The notes under the pieces are model-generated. The model did no database searches and had not been told where the DNA came from. It saw only the letters and a program-made list of their open reading frames with translations. Shown here one piece after another: positions 43,762 to 48,025 of a stretch of DNA of 64,000 bases; position 1 is the stretch's first letter; the number at the start of each line of letters is the position of its first letter. This DNA comes from Enterococcus malodoratus ATCC 43197 (GTDB lineage: Bacteria; Bacillota; Bacilli; Lactobacillales; Enterococcaceae), in assembly GCF_000407185.1 (NCBI RefSeq), contig NZ_KE136481.1, positions 637,136-701,135 on the forward strand. Direction: 5' to 3'. Position numbers and translations under genes: made by a program.

Positions 43762-44454
43762 ATGGTAACAAATAAAAAACAATGGTGGGGACTTCTAGTT
43801 ATTCCATTAGAATTACTGATTGGAAATGTCCTTTTTCCACTTCTTCACGTTGATAAAAATCCAAAAATTGCCTTGTTAGTTTCAACGCTGCTTTTTTTAA
43901 CAGGATTTTTAGTCATGATTTATCTGTTCCGAGATTTTTTAAAGGCTCAATGGCAACTTTTCCGACAAAAACTTTTTCGACGGTTGTTGCTGAGCATCCT
44001 TTTAGTTGCTGGTGCTTTCATATTGCTGCAGGTCGTTCGTAATTTAATTCCTAGTGAACTCCTTCAAGTTCGCTCCTCGACAAACGATTCTTCAAAAACA
44101 CTTAGTTCAGGATGGGTACTTTTAGCTGCGGTTGCACCTTTTCTTGCTCCTTTTGCTGAAGAATTGACCTTTCGCTACTTATTGTTAGGAAGCTTTTCTA
44201 GCAAAGCACTGCAAGTGATCATGCTTTTTGTCCAAGGTATTTTATTTGGATTGATTCATTGGAACAATTTTAATGGGAATATATACGCTATGGTCCCTTA
44301 CATGGTTATAGGCGTCTATTTCGGTTTAATTTATCTGATTTCCAAAAATATTTGGAGCTCTATCATGGTTCATTGGATGCTAAACACGATGAATTCAATG
44401 CTGCCGGCCCTACTGCTTTTGATCTTAAGTCTATTTGGCATCACTACTTCTTAG
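43762..44454 (+). CDS. CPBP family intramembrane metalloprotease (Abi/CAAX-like)
   Basis: 230 residues with six to seven membrane segments. Catalytic motifs are FAEELTFRYLLLG (Glu-Glu, near 133), FGLIHWNNF (His, near 165) and MVHWMLNTMNS (His, near 198). Members process prenylated or bacteriocin-related peptides or confer immunity. No bacteriocin gene is nearby, so the substrate is open. Confidence 0.92.
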   Translation: MVTNKKQWWGLLVIPLELLIGNVLFPLLHVDKNPKIALLVSTLLFLTGFLVMIYLFRDFLKAQWQLFRQKLFRRLLLSILLVAGAFILLQVVRNLIPSELLQVRSSTNDSSKTLSSGWVLLAAVAPFLAPFAEELTFRYLLLGSFSSKALQVIMLFVQGILFGLIHWNNFNGNIYAMVPYMVIGVYFGLIYLISKNIWSSIMVHWMLNTMNSMLPALLLLILSLFGITTS

Positions 44455-44474
44455 TCCTCCCTGTGAGGATTTTT

Positions 44475-44822
44475 TTATTTCAACATCTGTGCATACAAGA
44501 GAAATAAATACATTCCAACGCCGCATATTAATATCAAACACCCACACATAATAATTTTATGCAGGTGATTCTGACCACTCGCTGTAGAATATTTCATATC
44601 AATATAATTACTTCTGCCGATCAACGCAACCAGTAATAAAAGTATCGGAAATAAAAAGACGGCTGGCTTGCTACCAAAGTTATTCACGCTTCCATCAAAA
44701 CCAAACTGGATCGGAATCCTATTTGGAAGACGAGAATAGAAAATAATTCCCCACCCAAAGAAAAATGCCGCTAATGCAATGCTGATTCGAATTACCCAAC
44801 GATATACTCCCTCAAACATCAT
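44475..44822 (-). CDS. DUF1648 domain membrane protein (SdpI-like fragment family)
   Basis: 115 residues with three membrane segments. Between the first two lies the DUF1648 motif RLPNRIPIQFGFDGSVNNFG, found in the SdpI immunity protein family. It is shorter than SdpI. GGAGGAAGAAA precedes ATG 44822. It is the last ordinary chromosomal gene before the small-RNA-like region. Confidence 0.85.
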   Translation of the reverse strand: MMFEGVYRWVIRISIALAAFFFGWGIIFYSRLPNRIPIQFGFDGSVNNFGSKPAVFLFPILLLLVALIGRSNYIDMKYSTASGQNHLHKIIMCGCLILICGVGMYLFLLYAQMLK

Positions 44823-45002
44823 TTTCTTCCCTCCTTCAATTTAGCAATTAGTATATTCTTACAATCAAGAGAACTCTAGTAATTTCAAATACAAAAAGGG
44901 CTATTTTTTATACAAACAAATCCCTTCATTAAAGTAAGCCCTTTCTACAAATCAACGGCAATTTTAAATATTCTTTTTCGCATAATTCATTTTATGGAAG
45001 CA

Positions 45003-45115
45003 TAAAAAAACCAACGCTCAGCCACAAACGTTGGTTTAATCAGGATAAATTACCCTAAGTGAGAGTTGCCTCTCACATCACCCTTAGCATACATCAATCA
45101 TCGTTTGAATAGCAA
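45003..45115 (-). ncRNA. Candidate small RNA (unit 7) with GCAA-capped hairpin
   Basis: Minus strand TTGCTA (45115-45110), 18 bases, TATGCT (45091-45086), then a predicted transcript from about 45079. It contains GTGAGAG-GCAA-CTCTCAC (45059-45076) and ends in the terminator stem aaccaacg/cgttggtt at 45009-45036 plus TTTTTTT. No ORF of note lies inside. Confidence 0.45.
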
Positions 45116-45122
45116 GGGGCCT

Positions 45123-45287
45123 TTAAAAGAAAAGTAAAAGATACCAAAAAACACCACAGCTTAGCAAAACCAAAGCTGCAGTGTTCAAAATAAAGCGGGT
45201 GACGGGTTTCTTCTTTAAATTAAGCTCAAATAATTTAAATCTGAAATACTTTAAACACCTTGTTTTTAAGATGTTTGGATTACTCAC
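45123..45287 (-). CDS. Candidate small cationic membrane peptide, 54 codons
   Basis: GTG start. Sequence opens MSNPNILKTRCLKYFRFKL, continues with ELNLKKKPVTR, then one membrane segment (FILNTAALVLLSCGVFWYLL) to the end. A basic half plus one helix is the layout of type I toxin-like or membrane-regulating peptides, but I recognise no family. The GTG overlaps the stop of a 16-codon ORF upstream that has GAGAGGTG, so translation could be coupled. No ribosome site of its own is seen. Confidence 0.45.
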   Translation of the reverse strand: MSNPNILKTRCLKYFRFKLFELNLKKKPVTRFILNTAALVLLSCGVFWYLLLFF

Positions 45288-45330
45288 CGAATGAAATTTT
45301 TGGGTAACTCATAGGTAATTCAATACTCAC
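45280..45330 (-). CDS. Candidate 16-codon leader ORF
   Basis: GTG at 45330, ten bases after GAGAGGTG, encodes MSIELPMSYPKISFGE and stops at TAA 45282-45280. The stop region (GGTGAGTAA) contains the GTG start of the 54-codon peptide. It could be a leader that couples or attenuates the second ORF. Confidence 0.35.
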   Translation of the reverse strand: MSIELPMSYPKISFGE

Positions 45331-45482
45331 TTTAAAATCACACCTCTCAGAAATTTATCTGCTATCTTTGAAATACTTAAGAATATGTTCGTATAACGTT
45401 CGCGAGTTGATTGGGATAATGAGAATATAAAAATAAACCCTCTACATCCAACTAAGGCTGTAGAGGGTGTTTGCTGCATACG

Positions 45483-45581
45483 AAAACCCACTCCCTAGCA
45501 AGGGTAAAGAGTGGGCAAAAGAAAATGTGAGAGCGGATTACTCTCTACTTAGCAGTATATCACTTTTAGGTTTCAGCGCAA
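45483..45581 (-). ncRNA. Candidate small RNA, unit 5
   Basis: TTGCGC (45581-45576), 16 bases, extended TGATATACT (-10 at 45559-45554). Leader contains CACATTTTCTTTTGCCC, then stem CCCACTC/GAGTGGG and TTTTC. Related to units 1-4 by layout only. Confidence 0.4.
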
Positions 45582-45684
45582 TAAAAAAACAGGCACCTTT
45601 CGCCAGGGTGCCTGCCCCTCCTGTTAGTTGAGGTATGAGGATACTTAGTATTTCTATGATAATATAAAGCGGTTACAATGGCAA
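45581..45684 (-). ncRNA. Candidate small RNA, unit 4
   Basis: TTGCCA (45684-45679), 17 bases, TATCAT (45661-45656), spacer motif TTGTAACCGCTTTAT. The leader has ATACTAAGTAT and AGGAGGGGC instead of the CU tract, then hairpin AGGCACC/GGTGCCT and TTTTTTT. Confidence 0.45.
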
Positions 45685-45699
45685 ATAAAATGATTTCTG

Positions 45700-45799
45700 A
45701 AATAAAAAGGAGCACCCGATTATTCGAGTGCACGCAGATAAAATGAAAGAAAAGTTTCTAGGATACTGACATTTTAATATAAAACGCTTACATAAGCAA
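45700..45799 (-). ncRNA. Candidate small RNA, unit 3
   Basis: TTGCTT (45799-45794), 17 bases, TAAAAT (45776-45771), spacer motif ATGTAAGCGTTTTAT. Leader ends CTTTTCTTTCATTTTATC before hairpin GCACTCGA/TCGGGTGC and CCTTTTTATTT. Confidence 0.5.
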
Positions 45800-45814
45800 G
45801 GCATAAGCAATACA

Positions 45815-45908
45815 AATAAAAAGAAGCACCCGATCACTCAGGTGCTCCACAGAAATAAAAGATTCTCTAGAATAAATTTAGTATACAATGAAACGGTTAC
45901 ATTGAAAA
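45815..45908 (-). ncRNA. Candidate small RNA, unit 2
   Basis: -10 TATACT (45885-45880), weak -35 TTTTCA at 17 bases, spacer motif ATGTAACCGTTTCAT. Predicted RNA of about 58 nt with CTTTTATTTCTG before the hairpin GAGCACC...GGGTGCTT and TTTTTATTT. Confidence 0.5.
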
Positions 45909-45927
45909 GCAATATGATGATATCGCA

Positions 45928-46019
45928 CCAAAAAGGGACGCTCAATTATTGAGCGCCCCTAGAGAAAATAAAAGATTCACTTGGATCTTTAGTATATAAT
46001 GTTAAGGTTACATATGCAA
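45928..46019 (-). ncRNA. Candidate small RNA, unit 1
   Basis: TTGCAT (46019-46014), 17 bases, TATACT (45996-45991). Predicted RNA of about 57 nt from near 45984: a 5' AAAGAT/ATCTTT stem, single-stranded CTTTTATTTTCTCT, then hairpin GGGGCGCTC/GAGCGTCCC and TTTTT. Confidence 0.5.
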
Positions 46020-46102
46020 TAGAAAAAACAGCTTAGTTTAGAAGTCTTTACTATAACTATTTAACTTAAAATCAGTTTTCTAGATTACATTTAGTTTTTT
46101 TA

Positions 46103-46174
46103 TGTACTCCGCAGGCCTCGAACCCGCATCTTCCGATATGAACCGGAGTATTCTACCAATTGAACTAAGGGTAC
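46103..46174 (-). tRNA. tRNA-like gene with irregular anticodon arm
   Basis: 72 bases on the minus strand. Acceptor GTACCCT/GGAGTAC (one mismatch), D arm GTTC-AATTGGTA-GAAT, T arm GCGGG-TTCGAGG-CCTGC. The anticodon arm TCCGGTTCATATCGGA folds with a 6- or 8-base loop rather than 7; the nearest reading is CAT. CCA is not encoded. Probably a phage-type or decayed tRNA. It is next to the prophage late end, so it could also be an attachment site. Confidence 0.55.
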
Positions 46175-46221
46175 TTTAAATGAGTATTATTATTTTTTAA
46201 ACGTGTTACAATAAAGAAATA

Positions 46222-46283
46222 GAACGTCAGATCTTCCCCACAGTCCACTTCCCCAAGTAACTGTATCTGACGTTCCCTTTTTT
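46222..46283. other. Nested hairpin with repeated cttcccca
   Basis: Outer stem gaacgtcagat (46222-46232) with atctgacgttc (46265-46275), inner stem acagt/actgt, and two copies of cttcccca (46233-46240, 46248-46255) in the interior. TTTTTTT follows on the plus side. No gene is seen across 46175-46376. Confidence 0.5.
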
Positions 46284-46376
46284 TATGGGCGAGTGACTTC
46301 CCAATAGAGTAGATGTTACATAGAAACCGATTTCTTTGCAAATGATACACTCATGTTTCTAAGTTCCACAAAAAAA

Positions 46377-46401
46377 CAACCAGCCTGCACACGACTGGTT
46401 G
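46377..46401 (-). terminator. Terminator of the prophage lysis genes
   Basis: Stem CAACCAG/CTGGTTG followed on the minus strand by TTTTTTTGTGG, about 95 bases after the endolysin stop. It marks the end of the late operon. Confidence 0.85.
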
Positions 46402-46495
46402 CTGAAAGATGAAACTTAGTTATGAAAAAGAAGTAAGTTCTGGCAAAACTTACACATTCATAATAGCTCTTTTGTTAATATCTTGCAAGCGCATT

Positions 46496-47509
46496 CTAAT
46501 ACTTAAATCCTTTCATATGCGTTGGATTAATTCCAACATCCTTTGCTTTGCCCATTTCTTGAATCTCTTTCAATACAATAGGCGCATCTGTATTGTTAAA
46601 TCCTTCCCCTTTAACGCGAACGTCATAGGTTCCATAAGAGTTCGCTTCTGCATACGTCTGCTGGTCTAATAGCACATCCTTCAAGAAATTGCGCACGTGG
46701 CCTTCCATCTTCTTGCTTTGCTCATCATTCAAATTCCGTGCCTCGATCTTGATTATAGGTTTGTCTCCATCAACGATCGCAATGTTTTGCTGCATGTAGC
46801 CTGGATAGTATGTTTTAAGCTCTTGCTTCAAACGATTGACCGCATTCTCATACTTCCATTTTGAATCGCAAGTGATAACCAGCGTATAGACTTTGTTCGG
46901 CTGCAACACACGTTTCACTTGGTCACGAAGCAACGTCCAGGCGTATTTCGTTTGAATACGCTGAACCATTTTTACCGCCTGATCTTTGGTGACATTATCG
47001 ATCGCAATACCATTCTTATTTCCAGAAGGTTGAGGCTTAGGTGCTGGTGCTGGACTTGGATTCGGTTTAGGCGTGGACTTCAACCGATAGGCATAAAAAT
47101 AAGGACACCCAGCCATTACCCATCGTTGATCATGATTGGCAATAATTGTTGTATCCTTCCATCCTGTGCATTCTATCCAATTTTGATTATCTAGTGCAAT
47201 CCCTGTGTGACCGCCGGCACCGGCAGAGTATCCTTTTTGTCCCCAGATGATGATATCTCCGCGTTGCATCGGAAAGTCACTGTTCTCGGCGATTTTTTCA
47301 TATCCTAACTTCGTAAGGTAATCGTGCAACGTTTCGGTACTCGGAATATATCCATAATCAAAACCGCCTGATTCACGTAAAATACGATAGACAGACCCCG
47401 AACAATCACAAGTGCCGTCCGTATAATATCGCGAGCCATACATGCTGTAGCTGCAGTTGTTTACGAAACGCTGAACAACAGCTAAACCCGTTTCAATATT
47501 AATGGCCAT
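46496..47509 (-). CDS. Endolysin (Amidase_5/NlpC-P60-like peptidoglycan hydrolase)
   Basis: 337 residues. The N-terminal catalytic domain (about 1-145) has the nucleophile in TCDCSGSVYRIL (near 34) and His in GGHTGIALDNQNW (near 100), the layout of phage Amidase_5 enzymes. A Pro-rich linker (PKPNPSPAPAPKPQPSG) follows. The C-terminal 180 residues form a separate wall-binding domain I do not recognise. No signal peptide, so holin-dependent. AAGGAGG precedes ATG, which overlaps the stop of the small gene upstream. Confidence 0.92.
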   Translation of the reverse strand: MAINIETGLAVVQRFVNNCSYSMYGSRYYTDGTCDCSGSVYRILRESGGFDYGYIPSTETLHDYLTKLGYEKIAENSDFPMQRGDIIIWGQKGYSAGAGGHTGIALDNQNWIECTGWKDTTIIANHDQRWVMAGCPYFYAYRLKSTPKPNPSPAPAPKPQPSGNKNGIAIDNVTKDQAVKMVQRIQTKYAWTLLRDQVKRVLQPNKVYTLVITCDSKWKYENAVNRLKQELKTYYPGYMQQNIAIVDGDKPIIKIEARNLNDEQSKKMEGHVRNFLKDVLLDQQTYAEANSYGTYDVRVKGEGFNNTDAPIVLKEIQEMGKAKDVGINPTHMKGFKY

Positions 47510-47614: not shown

Positions 47615-48025
47615 TTATTTGTCCTCCTTTTCATCATGTGTTCCTCTAATTTGCAAAAAAGCATCTTTAATTTGATCTGGAAAATTAATGAACACTGAAA
47701 TGTTTTCTAAGAAGCTAATGCCTTCGTTAGCTAGATAAAACATAATGACGATCTCACGAAGCGGAATCGAGCTACCGATCACCTTTTCTACTTCCACTGC
47801 TACTGCAATAACTACAAAGATCAATACCTTTCGAATCAATCCAATAAATCCGATTCTGCTACTGATTTCTTTCAAATTCCATGCTTTTAATAATCCAGTT
47901 AAGTAATCCACAATTACCAAATATACCAACGCGTGCAAAATTGCATCCATCCCTCCAAGCCAACTAACCATTACACCGCCCAACACCCCTGTTACAATAG
48001 ATGCTGCATTTAAATATTTTTCCAA
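47615..48025 (-). CDS. Phage holin (toxin secretion/phage lysis family)
   Basis: 136 residues with three to four membrane segments (about 6-24, 28-48, 65-85 and 90-110) and the family pattern YLVIVDYLTGLLKAW near residue 36. A charged C-terminus ends GTHDEKEDK. It opens the membrane for the endolysin. Followed by the 34-residue gene and endolysin. Confidence 0.93.
   Translation of the reverse strand: MEKYLNAASIVTGVLGGVMVSWLGGMDAILHALVYLVIVDYLTGLLKAWNLKEISSRIGFIGLIRKVLIFVVIAVAVEVEKVIGSSIPLREIVIMFYLANEGISFLENISVFINFPDQIKDAFLQIRGTHDEKEDK

Follow-up and report, generated by a model that had tools for sequence, protein, structure and literature searches.

A row of short genes near one end of an Enterococcus malodoratus prophage very probably makes small regulatory RNAs

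Five short units between lysis genes and attachment site

The window analysed here (64,000 nucleotides of Enterococcus malodoratus ATCC 43197) carries an array of small-RNA-like units on the minus strand at 45482-46019, in which reading of the strand reveals four alike units, A to D, and a diverged unit, E. The array sits in a prophage of about 42 kb integrated in tRNA-Gly, between the lysis genes and the attachment site. At this end of the prophage lies the 13-bp attachment repeat AAAGCGGGTGACG (45192-45204), a copy of the 3' end of tRNA-Gly(CCC); its second copy is the 3' end of the tRNA-Gly(CCC) gene (L021:4730-4800), about 42.4 kb from 45192. On the other side, domain matches identify a phage holin (Phage_holin_4_1, 47615-48025, minus strand) and a phage endolysin (Amidase_5, 46496-47509, minus strand), the last lysis gene ahead of the array. 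At 46103-46174 on the minus strand, ARAGORN calls a tRNA-like gene whose anticodon ('ca') is unreadable, and such a gene is also called in two further prophages (L013:7611-7682 and L016:6507-6578).

Units A to D share the design that the initial annotation had described for the minus strand at this place: promoter, leader, GC hairpin and T-run. The promoter spacer measures 17 nt in all four, and the leaders are 24-35 nt long. The operator-like repeats in the spacers start at 46012, 45901, 45792 and 45677, which gives spacings of 111, 109 and 115 bp. All RNA ends given below are predicted. In unit A (45930-46019), the -35 box TTGCAT (46019-46014) is followed by the repeat TGTAACCTTAACA (46012-46000) and the -10 box TATACT (45996-45991). 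The predicted RNA (about 45984-45930) would comprise, by reading of the strand, a 24-nt leader, the hairpin AGGGGCGCTCAATAATTGAGCGTCCCT (45960-45934) and the T-run. Unit B (45818-45908) has the boxes TTTTCA (45908-45903) and TATACT (45885-45880) around the repeat TGTAACCGTTTCA (45901-45889), with a predicted RNA of about 45873-45818 and its hairpin at 45848-45823. Unit C (45704-45799) has TTGCTT (45799-45794), TGTAAGCGTTTTA (45792-45780) and TAAAAT (45776-45771); its predicted RNA (about 45764-45704) opens with the csRNA-like leader ATCCTAGAAACTTTTCTTTCATTTTATC and forms a hairpin at 45731-45712. Unit D (45584-45684) has TTGCCA (45684-45679), TGTAACCGCTTTA (45677-45665) and TATCAT (45661-45656), and a predicted RNA of about 45649-45584 with a hairpin at 45614-45590. 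Homologues of unit D occur at five other places. Unit E (45482-45581) is next in the row, at a spacing of 102 bp, and its 16-nt spacer TGAAACCTAAAAGTGA, between TTGCGC (45581-45576) and TATACT (45559-45554), is unlike those of A to D. Two hairpins follow at 45545-45529 and 45516-45486, according to strand reading and the terminator and promoter scan. Unit E and the terminator of unit D are kept together in three other genomes (G006, G009 and G015).

In the region 44500-47200, seven terminator-like sites were found compared with 2.1 +- 1.4 in shuffled sequences, and five of the seven belong to the array, two of them to E and one each to A, B and C. The hairpin of unit D is absent from this list because the scan permits only shorter loops, and this hairpin rests on folding. 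Promoter-like sites show no excess in the same region (7 versus 9.0 +- 2.8 in shuffles), so that the promoters rest on their likeness to each other and to relatives. The initial annotation had counted four to six tandem units; four alike units and one diverged unit stand, and six do not, as only five lie inside the prophage and the sixth hairpin (45037-45008) is beyond its end at 45192. The hairpins and T-run at 45008-45110 on the minus strand possibly belong to a host small RNA or leader.

The window prophage carries two further units in tandem, M1 and M2, near its middle (L020:5949-6133, plus strand). Middle units lie upstream of, and divergent from, genes that by reading encode packaging functions. 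Downstream of M2, tRNA-like remnants were recognised by eye on the minus strand (L020:6290-6880); ARAGORN called no tRNA in L020. Near the middle-type units of another genome (G005), the Listeria sRNA rli28 of Rfam gave a match of 134.3 bits (L129:2027-2206, minus strand). The prophage location, the operator-like spacer repeat, the further unit elsewhere in the prophage and the absence of C's anti-AUG from the A and B leaders go beyond the initial annotation.

Arrays in five other loci (L012 to L016) likewise lie, by reading of the open reading frames, after the endolysin and before host-like genes. The array of L017 lies elsewhere in its prophage, and L018 has no lysis genes within its 15 kb. 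Genes adjoining the arrays include Abi_2 in L013 and DUF3800 in L014. An 84-aa ORF (L015:8416-8667, plus strand, and relatives) adjoins the array in 22 of the 27 loci searched, among which several represent one and the same place. It has no match in Pfam, PHROGs or NCBIfam and none within the window; a LexA-like box lies upstream of it in 4 of the 22 loci.

Covariance searches of Enterococcus genomes, which the initial annotation had proposed, find relatives of the units. At E <= 0.001, model R1, which includes the window units, found matches in 8 of the 20 genomes searched for the genus and in 12 of the 105 for the family; six of these 12 are training genomes, leaving six new ones. Since R1 is circular for the window units, we built model R2 from units of other prophages and of viral contigs, 12 in all, with none from the window array or its counterpart in genome G012. 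Over the 64-kb window, R2 ranks unit A (E 1.1e-9), unit B (9.5e-9), unit C (9.8e-9) and unit D (0.13) ahead of the next match (0.67). These E-values are rough, and part of the score is promoter similarity because the consensus fold has the DNA repeat as a stem. In an even draw of the order, R2 matched 8 of 395 genomes at E <= 0.001, namely six Enterococcaceae (own genome included) and two of genus g8; the large searches used stricter filters, which lose weak matches. Model R3, built from middle-type units, matched 14 of 105 genomes at E <= 0.01, some via end-type units. Similarity searches of named phages and plasmid records gave no match. A prophage region of G016 (L017:8350-9540, plus strand) is dense in terminator units, with 10 terminator-like sites in 1.3 kb compared with 0.9 +- 1.2 in shuffles, a count that takes in one overlap and two opposite-strand sites. 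An operator-type promoter precedes two of the units in this region (1 and 3 mismatches), and in others, by reading, the -10 box lies right behind the preceding T-run.

A 13-bp operator-like repeat and its candidate regulator

The conserved promoter spacers reported by the initial annotation contain, in all of units A to D, TGTAA-SCG-TTACA or a degenerate version of this 13-bp inverted repeat (2, 0, 1 and 2 mismatches to TGWAASCGTTWCA, respectively). Among the 18 units listed, seven match TGWAASCGTTWCA exactly and two have four mismatches. When the whole window prophage was scanned in three pieces, the repeat with up to two mismatches and a suitably spaced -10 box occurred at five sites: A, B, C, D and M1. 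The copy in M1 is perfect and lies on the other strand than the array (L020:5955); M2 has no perfect copy. In the own genome, zero-mismatch sites number three, in unit B, in M1 and in an M-type unit at C1:1158876, and the 13 sites with at most one mismatch are at control level (11).

The strict pattern TGTAASCGTTACA-N3-4-TATAAT was found in 31 stretches on 29 IMG/VR contigs, all at such promoters and each with a single strict match. Of these, 21 are middle-type and ten end-type, three of the latter being truncated by a contig end ahead of their terminator; many stretches are near-identical and thus not independent. A looser pattern, searched in viral sequence, matched 13 stretches, of which 11 lie at such units and two elsewhere. 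In the genome collection, the strict pattern gave 14 stretches, of which four are Enterococcus end-type units and ten, by reading, are not such units. The phage repressor CI was considered as regulator and rejected, since the presumed cI/cro switch regions of three prophages are without this operator.

A protein bound to the repeat, between the -35 and -10 boxes of A to D, would block RNA polymerase, and release of this regulator would cause the sibling RNAs to be made together. Clostridial CcpA accepts TGTAAA-Yx-TTTACA with variable spacers, according to the accessible part of PMC5263246. Within the window, outside the prophage, a promoter-like site at 1891 (minus strand) resembles the operator in sequence. 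The 14-bp cre consensus of CcpA is TGWNANCGNTNWCA. Units A to D have 5, 3, 2 and 2 mismatches to it, which is a poor fit, the exact 13-bp spacing is found in 7 of 18 units, and the strict 14-bp pattern occurs at few places in the own genome (four versus one in the control). The AANCGNTT-like core and the TGTAA half-sites are of LacI type. These features, the site at 1891 and the spacer tolerance of the clostridial protein make CcpA the first candidate. Near-confinement of the 13-bp form to phage units, within the sequences searched, fits a phage regulator equally. The likeliest regulator is a LacI-type protein, with CcpA first, and a phage-encoded regulator is nearly as likely. If CcpA is the regulator, the RNAs would be carbon-repressed. 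CcpA-repressed small RNAs exist, for example RsaI of Staphylococcus aureus, which would be a regulatory parallel if CcpA binds the predicted operator; RsaI differs from the array in being a single RNA of unrelated sequence.

Relation to streptococcal csRNAs and possible targets

The accessible text of Marx 2010 (PMC3091779) lists a nonamer, an anti-Shine-Dalgarno (anti-SD) and an anti-start element as csRNA features, and states that enterococci and streptococci are without hfq. It also notes that streptococcal phages show a limited similarity to csRNAs, and names csRNA9 on plasmid pST0. Tandem csRNA genes are described in S. sanguinis in the portion of Jabbour 2021 (PMC8186281) available to us. 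The array units resemble csRNAs in being short predicted RNAs with their own promoter and terminator, present as several paralogues, with a putative 5' element near AUCCUAAAA, a U-rich leader and, in some units, an anti-start. A terminator that would end a short RNA, one of the marks of csRNAs, is recognisable in the units at the sequence level. In contrast to csRNAs, the array has no CiaR box and carries the 13-bp inverted repeat in the spacer, it lies on prophages of Enterococcaceae, and only some units keep both csRNA elements. The csRNA-like sequences of streptococcal phages and the csRNA9 of pST0 share with the array their location on mobile DNA.

The csRNA comparison had been drawn by the initial annotation, and it holds up in searches in both directions. 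In a wider search of genus g8, which we infer to be Streptococcus because CiaR promoters are present, R2 matched 17 of 98 genomes at E <= 0.05; with the two g8 genomes of the order search, the loci number 24. By reading, 21 of these loci have the csRNA leader type ATCCTAAA...TTTTTCATAATCTCC followed by a terminator; L139 and L148 have no csRNA leader, and L154 was not readable. The CiaR box at the 21 loci has 0-1 mismatches in nine, 2 in three and 3 in one, and is lacking in eight (4-5 mismatches; L136, L142, L145, L146, L149, L150, L156 and L157). Several of the csRNA-like RNAs of g8 that are without the box have an upstream sequence like ATCAGCCCTAGGACCGATG, possibly another operator, and some lie in pairs.

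A CiaR-type promoter pattern was present in 56 of 59 g8 genomes, while the reversed control gave six matches in all. For a less biased set, 30 loci were chosen by the CiaR promoter alone; by reading, 16 are clear csRNAs and two are uncertain. At E <= 1, R2 gave seven matches among them (E 0.013 to 0.58), all csRNAs by reading: six of the 16 clear csRNAs plus a second csRNA in L205. R2 missed the other ten, so that the relationship, though detectable, is weak. In the reverse direction, a leader profile made only from csRNAs (11 csRNAs, themselves found by R2) was searched against 32 Enterococcus sequences (374 kb in total). Unit C and its G012 counterpart shared the first rank, at a modest E of 0.023. 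Two matches outside units (E 0.056 and 0.29) precede unit 2 of L042 and its copies (0.61), and four units with csRNA features (L042 unit 1, L036, L125 and L129) are not among the matches at E <= 10. Sequence and structure similarity thus links the two groups, as R2 finds some csRNAs and the csRNA profile ranks unit C first.

The CiaR box NTTAAG-N5-TTTAAG is absent from the array region, where the best site has 3 mismatches of 11, so that the units would be csRNA-like RNAs under another switch rather than csRNAs. In csRNAs, the nonamer [A/C]UCCUAAA[A/C] stands at the 5' end or behind the first stem-loop. Mismatches to it number 4, 3, 1 and 2 in A to D, 0 in unit 1 of L042, and 1 in both unit 2 of L042 and L125. 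Over 18 hand-picked units, the nonamer has 43 mismatches versus 51.1 +- 2.9 in shuffles (5/500 as good). A U-run with CAT, a pattern chosen after seeing the sequences, is found in 7 of the 18 units versus 1.5 +- 1.1 in shuffles (0/500). The anti-AUG after the U-run is present in unit C and six others, and not in A, B or D; by reading, unit C has no clear anti-SD. The CU-rich tracts that the initial annotation quoted are common to the leaders of units A to C. The same layout exists in genus g8: in genome G369 (L210:9961-10640, plus strand), six tandem CiaR-driven csRNA units are spaced by 114-116 bp and adjoin, by reading, a restriction-modification locus.

By analogy with csRNAs, which block translation at its start, the U-rich leaders may base-pair with mRNAs at their translation initiation regions. 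In unit C, most of the 5' csRNA element (ATCCTAGAA) and the anti-AUG are preserved, and the reverse complement of this unit, AGATAAAATGAAAGAAAAG, has an AUG in A-rich surroundings. The leaders of A, B and D gave no convincing target reading of this kind; units other than C have drifted and may serve other targets. Across 267 initiation regions, the mean duplex energies of 10 of 11 leaders did not differ from shuffled leaders, including the csRNA positive control (z 0.05). For D (z -1.5) and the leader of D' (z -1.2), the difference points in the expected direction, and only L125 stood out (z -4.3, 0/60). In a search for the best target among 494 initiation regions, the real leaders were no better than shuffled ones (shuffles as good: A 16/40, B 28/40, C 10/40, D 15/40, E 27/40, M1 31/40, M2 3/40), and no phage target stood out.

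Explanations for the array

The units, their repeat and terminators, the prophage setting, the recurrence in other phages and the conservation of the RNA parts can be read from the DNA itself. On balance, and with moderate confidence, we favour the explanation that a temperate phage carries small-RNA genes in tandem, each transcribed on its own, whose RNAs are either diverged relatives of the streptococcal csRNAs or analogous to them. A temperate phage of Enterococcus-type bacteria would thereby carry, between its lysis genes and attachment site, an array of RNAs of about 55-70 nt. More tentatively, we propose that temperate phages of Enterococcaceae possess a dedicated small-RNA regulon with one phage-associated 13-bp operator at two prophage places, beside the packaging genes and beside the attachment site. 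Its RNAs would descend from or mimic csRNAs, with CiaR exchanged for a LacI-type switch of phage or host, and would tune translation in the lysogen.

A competing explanation, less probable than the favoured one and on the whole unlikely, is that the small RNAs act mainly within the phage, in late-gene timing or in control of superinfecting phages, under a phage-encoded regulator and not on host mRNAs. It would account for the placing of all strict operator-promoter matches in viral contigs at such units, and for the restriction of perfect operators in the own genome to two in this prophage and one at an M-type unit elsewhere. The position of the middle units next to packaging genes, and several prophage proteins that match phage transcription regulators, would also suit it. 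However, the operator is found at no other phage promoter in the own prophage, the presumed cI/cro regions of three prophages are without it, and the target search singled out no phage mRNA.

Quite improbable is the view that the array consists of remnants of terminators and promoters which recombination has accumulated at the end of the phage, with no RNA function. Phage ends are recombination hot spots, and by reading, a block A'-D-E is nearly identical across species while the neighbouring ORF differs at up to 31% of amino acids. Against this, promoter, leader and terminator keep their register in different prophages, and leaders and hairpins are conserved where the sequence between them is not. 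Between the window array and its 94%-identical G012 counterpart, changes affect 2/118 leader positions, 1/99 in hairpins, 3/52 in operators, 3/24 in -10 boxes, 1/22 in T-runs and 3/85 in the RNA of unit E, versus 22/157 in everything between. Leader and hairpin together (3/217) differ from the between-unit sequence at Fisher p 1.9e-6, and the leader alone at p 1.8e-4.

The initial annotation had seen selection on RNA in hairpins whose bases vary while pairing is kept, and this holds in part. In terminator alignment A2, the share of paired cells (82.9% versus 75.0% shuffled) and the covariation score (0.449 versus 0.293) exceed the shuffles (0/500 each); pairs changed on both sides (4 versus 2.4, 68/500) and further pair types (13 versus 12.1, 182/500) do not stand out. 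In alignment A5, the paired share (98.8% versus 91.5%) and the covariation score are likewise above all 500 shuffles, and the same two counts do not stand out (61/500 and 497/500). The aligned terminators are related, and pairing is expected of any terminator family. Selection on RNA is better supported, at the sequence level, by the conservation of leaders and hairpins against the sequence between them than by hairpin covariation.

We regard it as very improbable that the array acts as DNA, its clustered operators titrating a host or phage regulator and its transcripts being by-products: four operators in about 350 bp would serve this purpose, but they lie within promoter-like sequences, behind which come conserved leaders and terminators, and the 31 viral stretches have one strict match each. 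LhrC is an Rfam family of Listeria RNAs with UCCC motifs and the regulator LisR; its siblings lie partly in tandem and have single-stranded CU tracts, and the initial annotation had compared them with the array. Membership in this family is scarcely credible, as no Rfam LhrC match was found in the window at gathering score or in 44400-46500 at E <= 5, and by reading the leaders of A to D contain no UCCC.

In the literature searched, which covered few subscription journals, we found no description of such a prophage small-RNA array, and the accessible part of PMC7724050 describes none. The predictions of PMC3091779 rest on the CiaR promoter consensus, and its accessible text mentions neither an Enterococcus prophage array nor an alternative operator. 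To our knowledge, how prophages of Gram-positive lysogens exert control through small RNAs is little known. If the favoured explanation is true, a phage lineage uses csRNA-like RNAs as lysogeny genes and the csRNA design would not be tied to CiaR. The shared operator would then allow the set to be found by sequence alone, and would also give a route to naming the regulator. Very probably, the short genes in a row near this end of the integrated phage make small regulatory RNAs.
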